A DNA stretch of 29,359 bases from the IMG/VR virus record IMGVR_UViG_3300025695_000071, positions 1-29,359 of that record. One strand, given 5' to 3'. Positions 1 to 21,460 of the stretch are shown piece by piece. Origin of the DNA: a virus. The position numbers and the translations under genes are program-made. A model generated the notes under the pieces. It made no database searches. It had not been told where the DNA came from and saw nothing but the letters and a program-made list of their open reading frames with translations. Numbering within the stretch: position 1 is the stretch's first letter; each line of letters opens with the position of its first letter.

Positions 1-13
1 TTACATATTTATA

Positions 14-3000
14 ATGAGTGGATCACCAATAAAATCTAAGCTATTTAATAAGAGGGTATTGAACATCCTCAAGGATAGAGTGGGTGATTACAATGCGTTT
101 AAAGAAGGTGCGCTCAATGCTAAGCCGACTAAACCTTTTAGAGATGTTCTTGAAGCTCATGATAACTGGGAATCATTAACTGAAAGTCCAGACAGAAAGA
201 AACTTCTAAATGCGATTGAGAGCGTTAAAGAGAAGAAAGACACTCCATTAAAAACATTCTTGCAAGACAATAATGCGTTCATTGACTTGAATGATCTAAG
301 AGATGGATTCTACGCACAGAATGATTTCCAGATGAATGATATTATGTTGGTGTTAAAACCTACTGCATTTGGAGGAAAGTCTAACCACTCAACGTATGAG
401 AACGATATCTCTGGAGAAGTTATTGGTGTTCCAAATAAAAAAATCAATGCATACGACTTAATGCCAGAGGATGTAAAGCAGAAGTATTCTGACTCAATAA
501 CAGAGTCTCAGAAAGCACAAGTTGTTGCCCCTTACGGTATTGGAGTTAAAGGTATCTCTTCAAGAAAACAAATCGTGGGTAAGAAAGCTAGACTTTCACA
601 AGAAGCTAGAGACAATTACTACCAAGCTATAAAAATTGAGAAAGATGGTAAGACTCCTCAAGAGATTAGGCTTCTTACTGGATGGGAGAGAGGAAAGGAT
701 AAGAAGTGGAGATACGAAATATTCGATGGTGAGGCTGATTTTGCTCAACCATTGAAAGATCTTCAGACGTTTAAAATGCATAAGCTAAAGGATGTCTTGG
801 ATTTCCCTGAGCTGTACGAATTGTACCCAGACGCTGCAAACATGCAGTTTCAATCAAACCCCAATCTAAACGCATACGCACAATATCAAGAACAAAATGA
901 AAGGATAGTTATGAATCCAAGCCTATTTAGTCGTAAATCTAAAGAAGCTATATCTACTTTACTACACGAGGTTCAACATGCTATCCAAGAAATAGAGAGT
1001 TTTGGAAGAGGAGTTAACACTAGAGATGCTAAGGATAAGCTTACAGATGCTTTCTTATATACAAAGTACACAAAGCTAAATCCATTTAGAAAGTTCCGTG
1101 AAATATTAGGACTTCCATTTACTAGCACTGAAACGCTAAATAAAGCTATGGAAGATCTTAAGAGAGTTGCTGATAAAAGCGACTTTGAAGTTTACAAAAG
1201 AGCTTCTGGTGAGGTTGAGTCTAGAAATGTAGAAGCCAGAAAAAATATGACTGAAGCGGAGAGGCTAAAAACATTACTTAGCGAAACTGAAGACATTTCT
1301 AGAGAGGAGCAGTATATTGTTAGAAAGCAACAGGTAACCAATAACGAAATTATACAAAGAGCTAAAGAGGCTGGTATCAGCGATGCTGCAATAAGAGAAT
1401 ACCTAAAAGAAATAGGAATGTCTCCTGAAGCGGCTGATAGAGCTGTGAAAAAGTACAATGATAAGGTCAGACTTGAGGCTCAAAAAAAAGAAGGTATAAA
1501 GGTTATAGATAATAAGACATTAAAAGGTTTAGACAGGATACTTAAATTCTTAACCTCAGCAAGAGCTTACGCTCCTAAGAGTATGCAGGTTGCTAAGGAA
1601 TCTAGAAATGGGTATATTGAATCCAACACAAAAAAGGCGAAGTTAACCCTAAACAAAATTGAAAAAGAAATCAAGAAGTATAAAGGTGACAAGGTAGCGT
1701 TAATGTCTGATGTAGATGCGTTCTTGAGGGGTGACGAAAGCGTTTCTCTTCCAGATAATGTACAGAAAATTGCAAACCAAATGCGAACACATATAGATAC
1801 ACTATCTTTATCATTATTGGAGAGTGGTGCTGTGTCAGATGTTGCGTTTGACGATCTTACAACAGCTCAAAAGAAAGAGCTTATAAAACAATTTGAAACA
1901 GAAGAAGAAGCTAGAAATAACTATAACACCTCAAAACAAAATGTCTTAAATAATATTGGATCATACTTAACACGATCATACGAGGTTTACAGTAACAAGA
2001 ATTGGAAAGATAAAGTGGCTCAAGAGGTTGTTGATAAGGCAAAGAACTATCTTAAGGAACAAATGAGACCAGCTGCCGAAAAGCAAGCTAAAGAAGAGAA
2101 TAGACCTGTAGAGACAGTTCTTCAAGAAAATGTTGACGCATTGGTTGACAGTCTACTGGACAGAGATCAAGCTAAAGCGTTTATATCAAACGCAAACGAT
2201 GCTTCTAAAAACTTAGGTATACTTAGAGGTAGAAAAGATATACCTGCTGAACTTAGAGCTTTGATGGGTGAATATACTTCGCCAGCTATGAATTACATCA
2301 TATCTGTAAATAAGGTTTCTGCACTTACCGCACAACAGAACTTCTTGAATAAGATGAAAGAAGTAGGAGAAGGTGTATTCTTTTTTAAAGACGATAAAAC
2401 GAAAGGTTTTAAAACAAGGATAGCAGCAGAAGGTTCCGAGACTATGAATCCTTTAAATGGTATGTATACAAGTCCTGAGATCGCTGAAGCATTAAAAGGT
2501 GGTTCGGTTATAGGTGTAAATCTAGGTCCACTACAATCAGCCGTTGACTTTTACTTAAAATCTGTAGGTCTTGTTAAGTATAACAAAACTATACTATCTC
2601 CAGGAACACACGCAAAGAACTTCTTGGGTAACATGTTCTTCATGTTAGCAAATGGTCACATAGACCCTAGGGATTATTACAATTCAGCGAAGGTTGTTGG
2701 TAACGACTTGTTTGGAGGGAAGAGAGAAGATCTCAATAATAAATTGCTTGAATATATTGAAGCTGGTGTAATCAACCAGAGTGTAACTCTCAGAGACCTT
2801 AGAGACATGATGTCTGGCAAAGAGAATCGAGTTGATAGTATGGAAGACTTCGAGAAAAGGATGATGCAGAGATTTAACAAGCCAACATGGTCGAAGTTAA
2901 AGTCTAAGCCAGAGTCTTGGTATCAAGCGGAAGATGATTACTTCAAGATCCTTGCATACGAAGCTAACAAAGCAAGATACTCAAAAGCATTGTTTGGAAA

Positions 3001-4198
3001 ACCATTCGATCAGCTAAATGATAAACAAAAAGCTGAAGTTAAAAAAACAGTTACCGAGATAGTAAAGAACACGCTTCCAAACTATGACAGACTACCAGAG
3101 GTTAGAAAACTAATGAGAGCAGTTCCATTGGCTGGGACATTTATATCATTCCATATTGAAGCTATTAGAACAGCGTGGAATACTTTAGATGTAGCTAGAA
3201 AAGAACTTGCAAATCCTAAAACAAGATCTATAGGTGTGAAAAGACTTTCAGGTATTATGGCGTTAATAGGACTTAAGGCATTTGTATTATCATCCCTAGG
3301 AATAGGTGACGAAGACGATGATATAGAAAAGTCAGTAAGAACATTCCTTCCATCATGGTCAACAAACTCTTATAAAGTTATAGAGAGTGCTGAAAATGGA
3401 GTTGTTAAATACAGAGACCTTAGCGCATCAGATCCGTGGGGTGTAGTAGACAGAGCTTTTATAGGATATATGTCTGGAGAGGACAGTATAGATGGTTTTA
3501 TAAACTCATTAGATGAGGTGTTTGGACCGTTCGTTGAACCAGATATTTTATTCAATGCACTTTCTATAATTAGAGGTAAAGTTGACGAAGATCAACCATT
3601 CTCTCAAAATGCAGACATAGTGATGAAGGAGCTATATAAAGTATTGAGTCCTGGAGTTTTAACATCTGGAGAAAGAATATTTTTTGAAGACAAGAAAAGC
3701 CTTGTTGATTTAGTACTTGGACAAGAGGTTAGTATGAAAAAACAAGGTAGACTAAACGAGTTTATCGGTCAGGTTTCTGGGTACAAGACAAGAGAGGTGA
3801 AGGTCGAGGATGCTATATTCTTTAAGTTTAGAGACATAGCGAGCGCAGGTATAGGTAAATCATATCCAGGTAGCGCAAGAACCGCTGCTAGCTTATACAA
3901 TAAAACTTGGTATAAAAATCAAGAGGGTGAAGCAACTGAAGAACAACTTCAGGCTGCATACGAGAAGTCTAACAAGGCTTACAAGAATGCGATGGATGAG
4001 GCTGTTAAGTATTATAAAGATGCACTAAAACTCGGAGTTACGCCTAGCATTATAGATGCCAAGATGAAGTCAGCAGGATTTAGAAAGCAAGAGATAGAGT
4101 CGCTATCACAAGGTGTGATACCTGAGTTGAAGCAGAAAGAGCCTGAGTTATCTGAGTATGAAAGGATGTTAAAAAAGAGGACTAGAAGGAGGAGATAA
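14..4198 (+). CDS. Large polyvalent phage protein with HEXXH metallopeptidase-like segment (1394 aa)
   Basis: Multidomain protein of the large polyvalent type that phages package and eject with DNA; its size and place beside other virion genes suggest an internal virion or ejection protein. Residues about 215-425 resemble a polyvalent-protein zincin module: HEVQH at 318-322 gives the HEXXH pair and GEVESRNVEAR near 399-409 could supply the third (Glu) ligand. A long charged, helical middle (about 410-750) follows. Residues about 750-1060 (SPGTHAKNFLGN, FISFHIEAIRTAW) resemble the LPD38-type domain common in podovirus internal proteins. The C-terminus is very basic (KKRTRRRR). The ATG at 14 is the first in the window, but the frame is open to the left edge, so an earlier start cannot be excluded. 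It converges with the leftward unit, its stop overlapping that gene by 17 bp. Domain assignment is from motif recall; peptidase activity is inferred. Confidence 0.8.
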   Translation: MSGSPIKSKLFNKRVLNILKDRVGDYNAFKEGALNAKPTKPFRDVLEAHDNWESLTESPDRKKLLNAIESVKEKKDTPLKTFLQDNNAFIDLNDLRDGFYAQNDFQMNDIMLVLKPTAFGGKSNHSTYENDISGEVIGVPNKKINAYDLMPEDVKQKYSDSITESQKAQVVAPYGIGVKGISSRKQIVGKKARLSQEARDNYYQAIKIEKDGKTPQEIRLLTGWERGKDKKWRYEIFDGEADFAQPLKDLQTFKMHKLKDVLDFPELYELYPDAANMQFQSNPNLNAYAQYQEQNERIVMNPSLFSRKSKEAISTLLHEVQHAIQEIESFGRGVNTRDAKDKLTDAFLYTKYTKLNPFRKFREILGLPFTSTETLNKAMEDLKRVADKSDFEVYKRASGEVESRNVEARKNMTEAERLKTLLSETEDISREEQYIVRKQQVTNNEIIQRAKEAGISDAAIREYLKEIGMSPEAADRAVKKYNDKVRLEAQKKEGIKVIDNKTLKGLDRILKFLTSARAYAPKSMQVAKESRNGYIESNTKKAKLTLNKIEKEIKKYKGDKVALMSDVDAFLRGDESVSLPDNVQKIANQMRTHIDTLSLSLLESGAVSDVAFDDLTTAQKKELIKQFETEEEARNNYNTSKQNVLNNIGSYLTRSYEVYSNKNWKDKVAQEVVDKAKNYLKEQMRPAAEKQAKEENRPVETVLQENVDALVDSLLDRDQAKAFISNANDASKNLGILRGRKDIPAELRALMGEYTSPAMNYIISVNKVSALTAQQNFLNKMKEVGEGVFFFKDDKTKGFKTRIAAEGSETMNPLNGMYTSPEIAEALKGGSVIGVNLGPLQSAVDFYLKSVGLVKYNKTILSPGTHAKNFLGNMFFMLANGHIDPRDYYNSAKVVGNDLFGGKREDLNNKLLEYIEAGVINQSVTLRDLRDMMSGKENRVDSMEDFEKRMMQRFNKPTWSKLKSKPESWYQAEDDYFKILAYEANKARYSKALFGKPFDQLNDKQKAEVKKTVTEIVKNTLPNYDRLPEVRKLMRAVPLAGTFISFHIEAIRTAWNTLDVARKELANPKTRSIGVKRLSGIMALIGLKAFVLSSLGIGDEDDDIEKSVRTFLPSWSTNSYKVIESAENGVVKYRDLSASDPWGVVDRAFIGYMSGEDSIDGFINSLDEVFGPFVEPDILFNALSIIRGKVDEDQPFSQNADIVMKELYKVLSPGVLTSGERIFFEDKKSLVDLVLGQEVSMKKQGRLNEFIGQVSGYKTREVKVEDAIFFKFRDIASAGIGKSYPGSARTAASLYNKTWYKNQEGEATEEQLQAAYEKSNKAYKNAMDEAVKYYKDALKLGVTPSIIDAKMKSAGFRKQEIESLSQGVIPELKQKEPELSEYERMLKKRTRRRR

Positions 4199-8546: not shown

Positions 8547-8859
8547 ATTTGTTTCTTAAGTATCTGTAAGTATAATTCAAGTGATTGTATGCATCAATAT
8601 AGCTAGTAAATGTCAATTCACTCAACGTTTCCTTACTGTCGAAACGTCTGCCATTTAATATAGTCCAATCCTTCCCTTCGGTAGTTATCCCACCTCTACG
8701 GACCGCTATCTTAAACAGCCCGTTAGCTTCATAGTCCTCCTTAGTTTTTTTGATAGATAAAGGAAGTATATACACCTGAAAATCATTTTCAATACACCAT
8801 TTGAAGTCATCAAAATTCAAGCCCTGGGATAACTTCTTGTTGTTCTTTTTTCTCTTCAT
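8539..8859 (-). CDS. Hypothetical basic protein (106 aa)
   Basis: It starts MKRKKNNKKLSQGLNFDDFK, with a highly basic N-terminus followed by an alpha/beta-looking body (YILPLSIKKTKEDY; AVRRGG; WTILNGRRF). It begins 50 bp inside the end of the primase-helicase gene and ends 8 bp inside the next gene, so it is certainly part of the replication operon if translated. No family recognised. A later start would shorten the overlap, but no better internal ATG is seen. Confidence 0.6.
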   Translation of the reverse strand: MKRKKNNKKLSQGLNFDDFKWCIENDFQVYILPLSIKKTKEDYEANGLFKIAVRRGGITTEGKDWTILNGRRFDSKETLSELTFTSYIDAYNHLNYTYRYLRNKYG

Positions 8860-11233
8860 ACTTATCAGTTTTGAAAATTATCCATCTACCCTGCCTTGAA
8901 CGACCTTCCTCCACAACTACATCACTTCTATAATCTCCATAGTAGTTCAACCATTTGTAGAAAGCTGTTCTAGATATGGTTCTCTTACCATTAGGAGCAA
9001 AATCTGGATTGTCGTTGATGAAGTCCATGTACAATTCATCCTTAAATATTTTGGCATCAGCAACAACTAAGTCACAAACTTTAGTACCCTCAACAAGACC
9101 AACCCATTCAATGAACTCATGACATGTGTCAGCGGCAAGTCTTTTTATAGCTGTGTTCGAAGATACTGATTGAACTAATCCTGTTGACAAGTATTTTTTA
9201 AGATTGCTAACCATATAGTTGTCGAAAGCGCACCATTCATCTTCGTCCCACTCATCAAAAAATCTCTTACCAAACTCATCTACTGGTGTAAAATCTTTGG
9301 TGTAAAATTGCTTCAACTCCACCTCAAACTTACGTCTCATGAATGAGTTACCTCTACCACGGATAGTGTAATTTGTAGTGATGACAATCTTAGGAGAAAA
9401 CTTGAATGGTATCCTAATAGCATCTTTGTTCTTCTTCTCAATAGTAATACCCTCAGTAATGGCAGAAAACAGCCTCTCAAAGTCAAAGCCCTTCTTTACA
9501 TCATCGAATGATAGAACCTGAGTATCAGTATTTATAGTCTGGTATGCAAATGGCTTGTCGAAAGAAAACGCCTTACCATCGATCATAGCAACCTTCTTCA
9601 TCATACTTATGCCCTGAACAAACAATCCTTTACCTGTACCACCCATTGGATTGTCACTGATAACCTCATCGTTAAGTATTACAGATGGACAGAATCCTGG
9701 ATCCTTGTATCCACTCATAAGGAATCCTATTGCAGATTCAAGAGACTCAACCCTATTATCATCATCTCCAGATATATTTCTTACAAAATTCTTGAAGTCA
9801 CATTCTGTAGTTTCACAAAAGTCAAAATCTCTATCAATAACCTGATCTTTCCAAACATACCCATCCAGATCAACATAGTCAACCATTACAAGATCATCTA
9901 CACAAACTTTTAGTGCACAGTTTCTAAAGTAGATAAATGAAAAATCTTTATCATCCTCAACAAAATGGACATCCACTGTATCAAGCAGAGATAAAAAATC
10001 CTCCCTAAAGTATCGTGTCTTGTCAGCAAAGAAGTTATAAATGGATAGATCATCAAACTCTTCTAAATATCCAAGAACAAAATCCTTTATCTCCTCCTCC
10101 GAAGCACGCTCGATAAGGTTATTAGTAACCTTTACAAACATATACTTCCTTGAGTCGTGTGGAGCAAACTTATAAAATCCTCTGTGTTGCAAGAATTCCT
10201 TAAACAAGTAGTGCACAATACTAATAGCACCACGTTCTGATTTTAACCAAAATCTCTTTATGGAAGAATCTTTTTCAAGATTATTTACAACAGCTTTGAC
10301 TATAGAGTCATCTACATCAGAAACCGACTCTTTGATAGAATCAACAGATCCACCACTGTTTATCTTCTGGCGAATCTTAGACATCCTAGCATCATCTTCG
10401 TAGTACTTAGTACCGTGAGCCATTACATCCCTGTAAGCAGAGTCTATAGTTGATTTTATCTCGGTAGGAGAAAATCCATTCGATGCATAGTTGTTTAACA
10501 CATACTCAGCTAAAGATTTATTGATACCATACTCATTCAAAGCAGCCGCAAGTATGAAGGCGTTGTTATTTCTCTGGCCTTCAACCATTGGATACTTCTT
10601 GGTCCACCATTTGATGAGTATCTCTATAATCTTATTGTCATCCGTAATAGGTATCGTTGGTCTATCTTTAATTTTGTCGATTGGTCTATAATCATAATCA
10701 GCCATCTTAGTCCAAACCTCAGAATCCATATTGATATAAATGTCTGGGTCGTAAGACTCATAACAGACACGGCTCACATTTTTTGTAGATATATCAAACT
10801 TATCTGAATTAAAATGTTCACCAAGAGCATCGAAGTAACGCTTATGGTTTTCGATATCAGATGGTATCTTAATGATAACCTTAAGTCCATTTCCACTTGG
10901 ACTAATAAAGGCAGACATCACGTGAGGATCAGATGATATAAGATCCTTGTCAGACAGCATAGATTGTTCACTCTCATAACCATCGAAGTCTAGACATATC
11001 AATCCACTGTGATCAAGTATAGCATCGTCAGATCTTTTGCTAAATGTACCAGAGAAACATATCGCTGGTAACTCTTTCTTAAGATCATTTCGCTTGGTCT
11101 TGTCCTGTTTTTTTCTGATTGAAGATATAAGATCTTTGTGCTTGCCTTCACGTACACGATCAAGAACAAAAGACACATCCCTATGGAATGGTGTGTATAT
11201 CTCCCTTATGTTTTTAAATATAGTTATTTTCAT
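8810..11233 (-). CDS. VirE_N-type primase fused to SF3/D5-like helicase (807 aa)
   Basis: Probable replicative primase-helicase. The N-terminal part (about 40-180) fits the VirE_N/BT4734-like primase-associated domain: LICLDFDGYE carries two Asp (82, 84), followed by SPSGNGLKVIIKI and VSRVCYESYDPDIYIN. The middle (about 190-460) is helical linker. The C-terminal ATPase has Walker A GGTGKG (about 531-536), a Walker B-like LSFDDV (DD near 577-578) and a sensor-like TTNYTIRG (about 619-626), typical of superfamily 3/D5 helicases. A winged-helix-like tail (TISRTAFYKWLNYYGDY) follows. It sits between DnaA-like and SNF2-like genes, and its start overlaps the DnaA-like gene by 4 bp (ATGA). Unusually, no DNA polymerase gene is nearby. 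Helicase confidence high, primase part good. Confidence 0.87.
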   Translation of the reverse strand: MKITIFKNIREIYTPFHRDVSFVLDRVREGKHKDLISSIRKKQDKTKRNDLKKELPAICFSGTFSKRSDDAILDHSGLICLDFDGYESEQSMLSDKDLISSDPHVMSAFISPSGNGLKVIIKIPSDIENHKRYFDALGEHFNSDKFDISTKNVSRVCYESYDPDIYINMDSEVWTKMADYDYRPIDKIKDRPTIPITDDNKIIEILIKWWTKKYPMVEGQRNNNAFILAAALNEYGINKSLAEYVLNNYASNGFSPTEIKSTIDSAYRDVMAHGTKYYEDDARMSKIRQKINSGGSVDSIKESVSDVDDSIVKAVVNNLEKDSSIKRFWLKSERGAISIVHYLFKEFLQHRGFYKFAPHDSRKYMFVKVTNNLIERASEEEIKDFVLGYLEEFDDLSIYNFFADKTRYFREDFLSLLDTVDVHFVEDDKDFSFIYFRNCALKVCVDDLVMVDYVDLDGYVWKDQVIDRDFDFCETTECDFKNFVRNISGDDDNRVESLESAIGFLMSGYKDPGFCPSVILNDEVISDNPMGGTGKGLFVQGISMMKKVAMIDGKAFSFDKPFAYQTINTDTQVLSFDDVKKGFDFERLFSAITEGITIEKKNKDAIRIPFKFSPKIVITTNYTIRGRGNSFMRRKFEVELKQFYTKDFTPVDEFGKRFFDEWDEDEWCAFDNYMVSNLKKYLSTGLVQSVSSNTAIKRLAADTCHEFIEWVGLVEGTKVCDLVVADAKIFKDELYMDFINDNPDFAPNGKRTISRTAFYKWLNYYGDYRSDVVVEEGRSRQGRWIIFKTDKYEEKKEQQEVIPGLEF

Positions 11234-11733
11234 AGCATTTTAATAATAGCATCTACACGTAACTTAAGTATTGAAATTTTCTCAGAAGGTACTCTGCGTA
11301 TAGATGATATAAGCTCTGATGCCTCTGTGTTTTCTATTTCGTTCAAGTTTAATTCAGCTGCAAGGTTATCGTACTTCTCTTTTAACTCGTTGTATTGAGA
11401 TGTAATCCTGTCGATAGTATCCTGCGATGTTTCGTCGAATGTATCTTCATCAATCACAAACTTTTTGAGCAAGTAAACTCTGTGAGAATTCATTTCCTTG
11501 TAGTGACTTTTTATGTAAGGAAGCACATTTTTAAGTGAGTGTATTACTGTAGCATGGTTTCTTCCAACAGACTTTCCAATAGCATCCATACTACCGAGTA
11601 ATAATTTGTTATATGCTAAATCATAAAAGATAGCTCTCGCTAATACATGATCATTATCCCTGCATTTTGACCGCAAGTCTTTACCCGTTTCTTCCGAAAC
11701 AATATCTACTAACCTTTCTAAATTCATTTTCAT
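11230..11733 (-). CDS. DnaA domain IV-like DNA-binding protein (167 aa)
   Basis: Residues about 20-75 match the DNA-binding domain IV of DnaA: helix SKCRDNDHVLARAIFYDL, then MDAIGKSVGRNHATVIHSLK, in which GRNHATVIHSL corresponds to the DnaA signature (G-R-D-H-T-T-V-x-H) contacting the DnaA box. The AAA+ domain of DnaA is absent. The rest is a long coiled coil (about 110-165). Such truncated proteins could mark a phage origin or load the primase-helicase, whose start overlaps this gene's stop by 4 bp (ATGA). DNA binding is well supported; recognition of real DnaA boxes is inferred. No clear TTATCCACA box was found in the window. Confidence 0.8.
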   Translation of the reverse strand: MKMNLERLVDIVSEETGKDLRSKCRDNDHVLARAIFYDLAYNKLLLGSMDAIGKSVGRNHATVIHSLKNVLPYIKSHYKEMNSHRVYLLKKFVIDEDTFDETSQDTIDRITSQYNELKEKYDNLAAELNLNEIENTEASELISSIRRVPSEKISILKLRVDAIIKML

Positions 11734-17828: not shown

Positions 17829-17877
17829 AATGTTTCTATTTTAATTGTTTATATCTTTTCGGGTATAGTTTCCTTTT

Positions 17878-18030
17878 TTATTCGTTTATATTTTCTAATT
17901 CTAATCTTGCTTGTAAATTGTGAGCGTATCTACTATACTTATAATTTTTACCAACTTGTTTTTGTGTTTGTTCATCAATGACAATAAATTTATCATCTTG
18001 TATATAAACTTCAAATCTGTTACTGTACAT
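17878..18030 (-). CDS. First gene of the leftward unit, small protein, unknown (50 aa)
   Basis: The ATG is at 18030-18028 and the stop TAA at 17880-17878. It starts MYSNRFEVYIQDDKFIVIDE, two beta strands, then a basic helix (QARLELENINE). Its leader AATTAAAATAGAAATATT begins right after the tRNA-like hairpin at 18051-18094, so processing there would leave a roughly 20-base leader. It is the promoter-proximal gene of the early unit. Unrecognised. Confidence 0.55.
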   Translation of the reverse strand: MYSNRFEVYIQDDKFIVIDEQTQKQVGKNYKYSRYAHNLQARLELENINE

Positions 18031-18050
18031 AATATTTCTATTTTAATTAG

Positions 18051-19503: not shown

Positions 19504-19523
19504 ATGTATAAAAATTGAATAGA

Positions 19524-21068
19524 ATGAATGAACTATTTTTTGATCAAGAAGGTCGTGACAAGCTGATTAGCGGTATCGAGAAGATATCTAAGGCAGTAAA
19601 AAGTACACTAGGTCCTTTAGGAAATACAGTAATATTAGAATCACAGGTCCACACTCGTGGATTAACGGTAACAAAAGATGGTGTAACTGTAGCAAAAGCA
19701 ATTAACTTACAGGATCCTGTAGAAAACTTAGCAGTACGCATGGTGAAAGAGGCAGCTGATAGAACAGCAACCTCAGCAGGAGACGGAACAACCACAGCAA
19801 TCGTGCTCACAGAGGCTATTGTTGTTGAAGGTATGCGTATTATTCAGCAAAACCCTACTATAAATGTATCAGAACTTGTTCGTGAGATTAATCGTGTATC
19901 GGATTGGGTTATAAATAGTCTATCTAAAAAGTCTAAGAAGGTAACGGGGCGTACATTGAGAGATGTTGCGACGATATCTTCCAATAATGACAAGGAATTA
20001 GGTAAACTTGTTAGTAATATATACAAGATGGTAGGTCAAGACGGTGTTGTTACTGTTGAGAATAGCCAGACTAGCGATACTTACTACGAGGTTACAAACG
20101 GAATCAAGATTGATAGGGGTCATACTAGCCGATTATTCATCAATAATCAGAAAAATGACGAGTGTATCTTAGATGATGTGTATATTTTGGCTACGGATCT
20201 TGAGGTCAATAGCATTCTAAACATAGAAAACGTACTTAAGCCTATAATTCAGGGCAATAAGAAGATACTTATTATAGGTAAGTGTTCACAAAACGTAATC
20301 AACACCCTAGGGATGAACGTTGTGAAGAACGGATTAAAAATCTGTAACATAACACCGCCTCAATTTGGGTACAAGACTAAGGAATTGATGTCTGACATTG
20401 CACTTTCTGTCGGTGCTAAGTATTTTTCTGAAGATACTGGAGATGATTTAAGCTTAATTACCATGTCCGATCTTGGTCATGCACAGAAAGTTGTCGTTTC
20501 TCCGACACAGACCGTCATAGTTCGTGACGAAGATCGTTCTCAAGAGGTCAGTGAAAGAATTTCTGAGCTAAAAGAAGCTCGTGAACGAGCTCAAAACAAA
20601 TCAGACAGAGATTTCATCAACGACAGGATCGCTAGTTTATCAGGTGGTGTTGGTGTGGTATATGTAGGTGGGGATTCTGATATCGAACAGAAGGAGTTAT
20701 ACGACAGAGTTGAGGATGCGGTGTGTGCTGTACGCTCAGCTTTAGAGGAGGGAATACTTCCTGGAGGTGGTTCGGCGTTACTACACTTCTCTAAAGATGT
20801 TTTGGAGATGAATTCTAATGCAAGTTCAATTGTTGGAAATGCAATGAGGGCTCCATTTAAGCAGATTGTTGATAACGCTGGAAAAATGTACCCATCTACC
20901 GCTGGGGCTTTCGGCGAAGGATGGGATGTCAAGAACGATAAATACGGAAATATGTATAAGATGGGAGTAATTGACCCGGCTAAGGTAACAAAAAATGCAC
21001 TTAAAAATGCAGTGTCGGTTGCGACAACTATATTAACCACTAATGCAATTGTAACTTTAAAAAGATGA
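19524..21068 (+). CDS. groEL: Phage-encoded chaperonin GroEL (514 aa)
   Basis: A full-length group I chaperonin 60 that should assemble rings and fold phage or host proteins with ATP. Equatorial nucleotide motifs are intact: STLGPLGNTVIL (about 27-38), DGVTVAKAI (52-60) and GDGTTTAIVL (86-95, with the catalytic-type D87). The apical region starts at GIKIDRGHTSRLFINN. The second half has VEDAVCAVRSALEEGILPGG and the equatorial end KVTKNALKNAVSVATTILTT. It is shorter than the usual 540-550 residues and lacks the GGM tail. The substrate-binding Tyr of DRGYLS is His here, hinting at altered client choice. I prefer the ATG at 19524 over TTG at 19515 given the promoter position. The stop overlaps the next start by 4 bp (ATGA). 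Confidence 0.95.
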   Translation: MNELFFDQEGRDKLISGIEKISKAVKSTLGPLGNTVILESQVHTRGLTVTKDGVTVAKAINLQDPVENLAVRMVKEAADRTATSAGDGTTTAIVLTEAIVVEGMRIIQQNPTINVSELVREINRVSDWVINSLSKKSKKVTGRTLRDVATISSNNDKELGKLVSNIYKMVGQDGVVTVENSQTSDTYYEVTNGIKIDRGHTSRLFINNQKNDECILDDVYILATDLEVNSILNIENVLKPIIQGNKKILIIGKCSQNVINTLGMNVVKNGLKICNITPPQFGYKTKELMSDIALSVGAKYFSEDTGDDLSLITMSDLGHAQKVVVSPTQTVIVRDEDRSQEVSERISELKEARERAQNKSDRDFINDRIASLSGGVGVVYVGGDSDIEQKELYDRVEDAVCAVRSALEEGILPGGGSALLHFSKDVLEMNSNASSIVGNAMRAPFKQIVDNAGKMYPSTAGAFGEGWDVKNDKYGNMYKMGVIDPAKVTKNALKNAVSVATTILTTNAIVTLKR

Positions 21069-21460
21069 GAAAGTACGAAAATTTAATTTATGGATTAGGA
21101 GCTGCTATCGTTATCTTAGGGGTTCTATTTAAAATTCAAAACTGGGATTACGGGAGTCAAATCCTAACTTTCGGTATGATTGTAGAGGCTGGCATATTTA
21201 TATACTCTTCTTTTACCCCTATGGGGGCTGATCCGAAGGAAATAGACAAATTTGGTGTTTACACACCATCTGTAAAGAGGTATAATGAACAAGTTGCTGT
21301 GGCAATCAACAATATTGAAGAACTCAACAAGATGTATGAGCAGCAAATAGAAGGTTTTTCTGAAACCACAGGTATGTCAGACAAACTTAAAGAAGTAAAT
21401 ATGCACCTTGAGTCATTGAGTTCTGTTTACCGTTCAATTCTTAAGACTATGAAATCATAA
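21065..21460 (+). CDS. GldL-like inner-membrane protein (131 aa)
   Basis: The N-terminus (residues 4-52) resembles GldL, the cytoplasmic-membrane motor subunit of the Bacteroidota gliding/type IX secretion system. YENLIYGLGAAIVILGVLFK (TM1) ends in LFKIQNW and is followed by ILTFGMIVEAGIFIYSSFTP (TM2); GldL has YGxGAAVVIxGALFKI and LTEAxIFxxSAFEP at these places, so the TM Lys and Glu (K23, E41) are kept. The C-terminus (IEELNKMYEQQIEG; HLESLSSVYRSILKTM) matches GldL's helical end, but the long GldL middle is missing, giving about 60% of host length. It is embedded between groEL (4-bp overlap) and groES (1-bp overlap), so all three are co-translated. Motor interference or a mimic role is inferred. 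Confidence 0.8.
   Translation: MRKYENLIYGLGAAIVILGVLFKIQNWDYGSQILTFGMIVEAGIFIYSSFTPMGADPKEIDKFGVYTPSVKRYNEQVAVAINNIEELNKMYEQQIEGFSETTGMSDKLKEVNMHLESLSSVYRSILKTMKS

Follow-up and report, generated by a model that had tools for sequence, protein, structure and literature searches.

A predicted zincin-like peptidase coupled to LPD23 in a large polyvalent protein, probably carried in the virion, of an uncultivated tailed phage

The DNA analyzed here (the window) is the whole 29,359-bp virus contig of IMG/VR record IMGVR_UViG_3300025695_000071, and our subject is the gene at its left edge, described in the initial annotation as a polyvalent protein of 1394 residues with a zincin-like, that is metallopeptidase-like, segment. 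The open reading frame check of the window gave positions 14 to 4198 as an ATG-to-stop frame of 1394 amino acids. Upstream of this ATG the frame stays open as far as base 2, where the first complete codon begins, and the first base of the contig lies inside the gene, leaving 1398 readable codons on the plus strand (2..4198). The viral contig L002 is colinear with the window (88% DNA identity across 4545 bp) and carries an open reading frame (ORF) of 2989 amino acids in which the ATG at 14 corresponds to the internal Met1596; the shared part has 1394 residues in both and is 91.5% identical. A further contig, L100, covers the first 597 bases of the window at 96.3% identity, and its frame also enters open from upstream. 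Since the frame is open to the contig edge, and those of L002 and L100 continue upstream, the marked gene is by these comparisons the 3' part of a longer one, encoding the C-terminal half of a polyvalent protein that has 2989 amino acids in its nearest relative, with an internal ATG at 14. A complete protein of 1394 residues was ruled out by the L002 ORF and by the colinearity with L002 and L100; the length first annotated is that of a gene cut by the contig edge.

Judging from the encoded sequence, the polypeptide strings together several unrelated domains, as expected of a polyvalent phage protein, and the LPD23 match bears out that name. The readable part begins, all on the plus strand, with the C-terminal two thirds or so of a domain recognized in alignments of 25 viral loci and having no Pfam or NCBIfam model, which we call the DFQMND domain (2..553). 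It is followed by LPD23 (PF18838; residues 201-243, 614..742; E 1.8e-9, 37.7 bits against a cut-off of 27) and, immediately C-terminal of LPD23, by the predicted zincin-like peptidase (residues ~246-411). The peptidase consists of a core delimited by the structural model and its neighbors (residues 246-335, 749..1018), which contains the HEVQH motif (965..979); an insert of variable spacing and lower model confidence that separates the two motif helices (1019..1183); and Y394 with the GEVESRNVEAR helix (1193..1246). The rest is a C-terminal module (residues 546-1394, 1649..4195) that matches the virion structural family phrog_22602 (E 1.5e-36). In L002 the order of the whole protein is a first zincin (zincin-1, HETFH at residue 1349, with a phrog_87 metallo-protease match at E 4.1e-5), the DFQMND domain (~1500-1775 in the alignment, nucleotides 9710-10540), LPD23 (1798-1837 by profile match), a second zincin (zincin-2, located by its motifs, HEIQH at 1913 and, at 1995, the first Glu of GEVE) and the C-terminal module (2140-2969, matching phrog_22602, 'virion structural protein'). 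In L002 an HExxH motif precedes the DFQMND domain by 60-260 residues, as one does in 22 of the other 26 segments listed, some of which begin too late to tell.

The two motifs that the initial annotation had singled out, HEVQH and a downstream GEVESRNVE, are present at residues 318-322 and 399-407 of the window frame. A scan of viral contigs confirmed at least 532 relatives, 80 of which were kept; since L019 lies on the same contig as L002, these are not 80 independent cases. All 80, among them the 16 whose segment misses the HExxH search pattern, retain both HExxH and E400, the first Glu of GEVE. GExExR is found in 77 of the 80, the three exceptions (GEVQAR, SEVEAR and GELEAN) retaining the first Glu, and the distance from HExxH to GExE is mostly 28 to 193 residues. 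In the alignment of this family (A3; duplicates removed, and L055 left out because it has no GExE within the range of the script, its Glu being kept as SEVEAR), H318, E319, Q321, H322, Q325, E328, Y394, G399, E400 and R409 are invariant in 76/76 rows. LPD23 was matched at E<=0.1 by 74 of these 76 members, and the putative metallopeptidase family DUF6782 by 46. A separate alignment of 12 rows joins the window and L002 to phages AF, 8P, USP_25 and H66, one faecal and one Manatee Spring phage, Bacteroides, two Pseudomonas and a Neptuniibacter plasmid; conserved in it are H318, E319, Q321, H322, Q325, F330, G333, Y394, G399, E400, E402, R404, R409 and R417. Among genome contigs, 205 relatives were confirmed and 80 kept, with members spread across many phyla of bacteria and one on an archaeal contig; having been found by the HExxH pattern, they are uninformative on its conservation.

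We then modeled window residues 176-470 with AlphaFold2 (model m8d5c177a7036; mean predicted local distance difference test, pLDDT, 86; predicted template modeling score 0.83). The model has strands at 278-281, 289-292 and 297-300, a helix at 310-328 bearing both histidines and a helix at 398-411 with E400 near its start, and its confidence drops to 60-65 at about residues 346-375, in the insert. The first annotation's reading depended on clustered histidines, and H318 and H322 do lie on a single predicted helix, at i and i+4. With VIA-align against the PDB, the neighbors included PprI (8sln, Z 4.7, root-mean-square deviation (rmsd) 4.0 over 98 residues), anthrax lethal factor (Z 4.6), selecase (4qhf, Z 4.1, rmsd 4.7 over 92) and ArdC (6sna, Z 3.9, rmsd 3.0 over 80). 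The first 40 rows, 23 of which are one protein, lethal factor, are all, judging by their titles, zinc metallopeptidases or, like ArdC, proteins of the same fold; later rows include unrelated helical proteins. A viral library gave 15 matches passing E 0.001, seven of them named large polyvalent proteins, and a profile comparison of A3 with the zincin-1 alignment aligned the strand-HExxH part (probability 83.7, 36 columns). Foldseek against the PDB gave no match to the zincin model under E 0.47. Kinship in fold with an experimentally known protease family was therefore not retained, families outside the VIA-align list still being possible relatives.

That Foldseek result would also suit an HExxH that arose by chance within a helical protein. 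HExxH appeared, however, in only 20 of 5000 shuffles of the window protein, the motif is conserved family-wide and metallopeptidases head the VIA-align list; the shuffles and the conservation rule out a chance motif for practical purposes, and we give this explanation next to no weight. Sequence and model together indicate that HEVQH and GEVESRNVE belong to one predicted metal site, with H318 and H322 as zinc ligands and E319 as the general base, so that the zincin-like segment of the initial annotation stands, with its predicted site complete.

Some relatives have lost this site. In 201 genomes from the same family as G003, a genome of Phocaeicola vulgatus that holds L143, a search with LPD23 alone found 15 places in 12 genomes: seven (two in one genome) have HExQH with GEVEAR or GEVESR, seven have no HExxH, and the fifteenth, with a short ORF, is not judgeable. 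In the seven HExxH-less relatives H318 is always lost, H322 is lost in six (L216 retains it) and E319 in five (L212 and L214 retain it), whereas Q321 and Q325 are retained in 7/7. Six of them have Asn or Asp in place of the first Glu of GEVE, with the second Glu retained; in L216 the second motif is not recognizable. That both His and E400 are lost while the neighbors Q321, Q325 and E402 persist points to E400 as the predicted third zinc ligand.

In a quick tree of 171 rows, the seven degenerate forms make up one side of a single branch (SH-like approximate likelihood ratio test support 96; a value as low in 0/500 shuffles), although the unusual letter make-up of four of them could help draw them together. 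L220, missed by the domain search, is outside the tree, and the script's active count of eight adds L221, from another search. Their coordinates put each of the seven degenerate places no more than 1.6 kb upstream of a P22-type portal gene, whereas none of the seven intact places has one within 4 kb. In the four neighborhoods that were read (L222, L223, L224 and L225), the degenerate gene (1480-1639 amino acids) immediately precedes the portal gene; compared with L224, the portals are 72-83% and the degenerate proteins 28-42% identical. At E<=1e-20, 21 of the 201 genomes have this P22-type portal; 12 of them have it at >=73% identity, and seven of these 12 carry a degenerate LPD23 protein. LPD23 searches in 395 genomes (phylum) and in 369 (the class of another centre) matched the centre genome only, so the count of degenerate forms rests on the sample of 201 genomes. 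In the literature, the titles and abstract openings among the matches listed mentioned no metal-site-less LPD23 protein, and the two papers listed for LPD23 itself were unrelated.

The four neighborhoods contain a small chromosomal cassette: an ORF of ~180 amino acids, the metal-site-less LPD23 zincin and the P22-type portal, between ordinary chromosomal flanks. Pfam identified these flanking genes as ATP synthase for L224 and, for L223, as radical SAM, dihydrodipicolinate synthase and NAD-dependent DNA ligase. L224 has a tyrosine integrase after the portal, and L222 contains a match to this integrase. No capsid or terminase family was found in the subset of 20 ORFs scanned around the cassettes, which as far as read are not whole prophages.

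These relatives raised the question of whether the domain in the window phage could itself be catalytically dead, or purely structural. We consider this improbable, since its ligands and base are all intact, HExxH and the Glu persist in every one of the 80 viral loci, and the degenerate forms group apart from the window protein in the tree.

With regard to where the protein is located, two homologues have mass-spectrometry notes. Phage phi18:3 gp123, a homologue of the C-terminal module, is annotated in its record as a structural protein by tandem mass spectrometry (MS/MS) proteomics, and the record note of H66 gp60, an LPD23-zincin protein, begins 'verified by mass spectrometry as part'. By analogy, the window protein is probably carried in the virion of a tailed phage. 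It was first annotated as probably ejected: carriage as a virion passenger has gained support from these homologues, and ejection with the DNA, which would also be probable, is suggested by the protein class.

The initial annotation also left open whether the peptidase cuts a host target or processes the protein itself; neither is proved, and both options are already found in the account of polyvalent proteins by Iyer et al. (PMC5512222). Our best overall explanation, which we hold at slightly less than an even chance, is an LPD23-coupled, probably active zincin (H318, H322 and E400, with E319 as base) that acts on another protein from within a virion protein of ~2,990 amino acids. The particle would carry this protein by means of its C-terminal module and eject it with the DNA, whereupon the LPD23 zincin would cut another protein, most likely a host protein encountered on entry. 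The alternative, quite plausible in itself, is that the LPD23 zincin cleaves its own ~2,990-residue chain, in the head or after entry, releasing modules. Autoprocessing has been proposed for polyvalent zincins by analogy with the processing of P1 DdrB (PMC5512222); the two zincins that flank the DFQMND domain in L002 fit the release of cargo, and a partly conserved stretch C-terminal of the Glu helix in A3, near T425, D427 and Q433, could be a cleavage site or a docking strand.

What argues against autoprocessing is, in part, that the zincin also exists without the long chain: ATG-to-stop genes of 407-554 amino acids in L038, L057, L060 and L069 hold little besides the LPD23-zincin module, the one in L057 being located between the portal and major head genes. 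Conversely, the chain exists without this zincin. The LPD23-zincin is present in five of 28 distinct DFQMND segments, the window included, and was not found in the other 23, some of whose contigs end ahead of its place, and L003 keeps the C-terminal module with no Pfam match and no LPD23-zincin match; the LPD23-zincin thus appears swappable. Moreover, N4 virion RNA polymerase is packaged without processing, and the transfer of ArdC and TraC1 likewise takes place without it (PMC5512222). The ratio of non-synonymous to synonymous substitution (dN/dS) between the window and L002 is 0.154 and 0.156 in the catalytic stretches and 0.279 in the insert, compared with 0.048 in the DFQMND part, 0.065 in LPD23, 0.049 in the linker and 0.054 in the C-terminal module. 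Because of the short stand-alone genes, the swappable module and the higher dN/dS in the catalytic stretches, we favor action in trans and put a separate target slightly ahead of self-processing. The upstream zincin (HETFH, beside the DFQMND domain), which is more fixed, would be a more likely processor of the chain itself.

Several points weigh against a separate target cut by an active enzyme. The dN/dS values come from one sequence pair and a simple counting method and may just mean looser constraint; the short stand-alone proteins have 150-300 additional N-terminal residues and may have partners; and some of the segments counted as lacking the LPD23-zincin are those that end before its place. 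As to activity, the 80 viral loci were found via motif patterns and include near-copies (e.g. L053/L054 and L088/L090), the Foldseek search gave nothing better than the E value above, VIA-align Z scores of 4.7 or less are alone no proof of kinship, and catalysis, ejection and cleavage are predicted for this phage.

The DFQMND domain usually lies C-terminal of an HExxH motif and is strongly conserved, with the stretches FWxADQLG, LDAGPS, SGSP, RDGFY and HSTY (alignment A4 was made without L123, and A5 without L004/L117, L102, L120, L122, L123 and the window). Searches of Pfam, NCBIfam and 50,697 phage records gave nothing informative for it. A second model that includes it (pLDDT 74.5 overall and, within the domain, 72-96 for most ten-residue blocks) gave VIA-align rows on the DFQMND part of YTH domains (best YTHDF1, 7yyf, Z 6.5, rmsd 4.1 over 133) and of 1zce (Z 5.0), which we take to be an EVE protein; these Z scores are below the tool's trusted level. 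The best Foldseek matches of this model were PprI/IrrE (E 0.041). YTH or EVE profiles were absent from the Pfam matches listed for 23 DFQMND members at E up to 10, and the best PDB sequence match was RavD (E 0.083), with no YTH chain among the seven listed. YTH kinship, a structural hint without sequence backing, was not retained; the model shows a faint YTH/EVE-like resemblance that serves as a lead. A more speculative proposal, to our minds a long shot, is that the ejected protein is a guided protease: DFQMND, as a YTH/EVE-like reader of modified bases, would bring the peptidases to proteins on methylated nucleic acid (e.g. restriction/modification enzymes), which the faster-changing LPD23 zincin would disarm at entry, and in a related lineage the metal-site-less zincin would have been kept as a binding subunit beside the portal protein.

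The phage is uncultivated, tailed and probably infects Bacteroidota, a host suggested by the Cellulophaga homologues and by a GldL-like gene; no relative that would show the host through prophages with a DFQMND domain was confirmed in genome contigs. The GldL-like gene (21065-21460, plus strand) encodes 131 amino acids and matches the Pfam family GldL_N (E 9.3e-19), which represents the N-terminal domain of GldL, a protein of gliding and type 9 secretion. It lies directly 3' of a GroEL-like chaperonin gene (19515-21068, plus strand; PF00118 E 2.5e-51, phrog_5725), occurs also in viral contig L125, inside a 99.9% identical stretch, and had no match in the 50,697 phage records at E<=0.01. Its product could act on the host motor, either hindering or feeding it. 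Elsewhere, a gene on the minus strand (8810-11733) encodes a primase-like protein (BT4734-like N domain, PriCT_1, DUF5906) and adjoins that of a small protein with a DnaA C-terminal helix-turn-helix domain, and 17872-18034 is a small variable segment, L125 matching the window at 99.9-100% on either side and not across it.

Self-processing versus a host target becomes testable through a defined residue set (H318, E319, H322 and E400), a second zincin in the same chain, and natural variants in which the LPD23-zincin stands alone, is fused, is missing or has no metal site. Two parts would not be expected by a specialist: the metal-site-less relatives beside portal genes and, between two zincins, a DFQMND domain without a known family.

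How does this protein compare with known systems? Pseudomonas phage H66 gp60 ('PLxRFG domain-containing protein') likewise has an LPD23-like stretch followed by HELQHAIQ and GEVEAR, but is only 27% identical in the LPD23-zincin domain. Cellulophaga phage phi18:3 gp123 (Baltivirus) shares the C-terminal module (25% identical across 59% of the query); its tblastn match is, however, limited to query 546-1374 and does not cover the zincin. With the minimal zincins of the IrrE/PprI (M78), ArdC and selecase type, the model shares strands, HExxH helix and Glu helix in the same order, but there is no significant sequence match to solved structures (an IrrE chain has E 0.023) and the Z scores are too low alone for kinship. 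Of the 76 A3 members, 10 match Peptidase_M78 at E<=0.1, the best of them at 0.00038. In NCBIfam the window protein had two matches, both sub-threshold, and the three other proteins scanned had none.

The closest parallel is with the polyvalent zincin-like metallopeptidases predicted in 2017, of which 12 clades were described (PMC5512222, Iyer et al. 2017); there, zincins are the commonest domain of polyvalent proteins, and their role is left between processing and attack on the host. As in those enzymes, a large LPD phage protein combines an HExxH helix, a C-terminal Glu helix and a variable insert, and our model and alignment have HExxH on one helix, the Glu on a subsequent helix and a small preceding sheet. 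LPD23, however, is absent from the main text of that paper. Pfam MPTase-PolyVal (PF18818) scores 13.7 bits against a cut-off of 27.5, with weak matches in three of the 76 A3 members (E<=0.1), which is no exclusion, since the paper has 12 clades. The window zincin thus adds a member to a kind already described for polyvalent proteins in 2017; what is new is the set of seven HExxH-less relatives beside P22-type portal genes and the faint YTH/EVE-like resemblance of the DFQMND domain.

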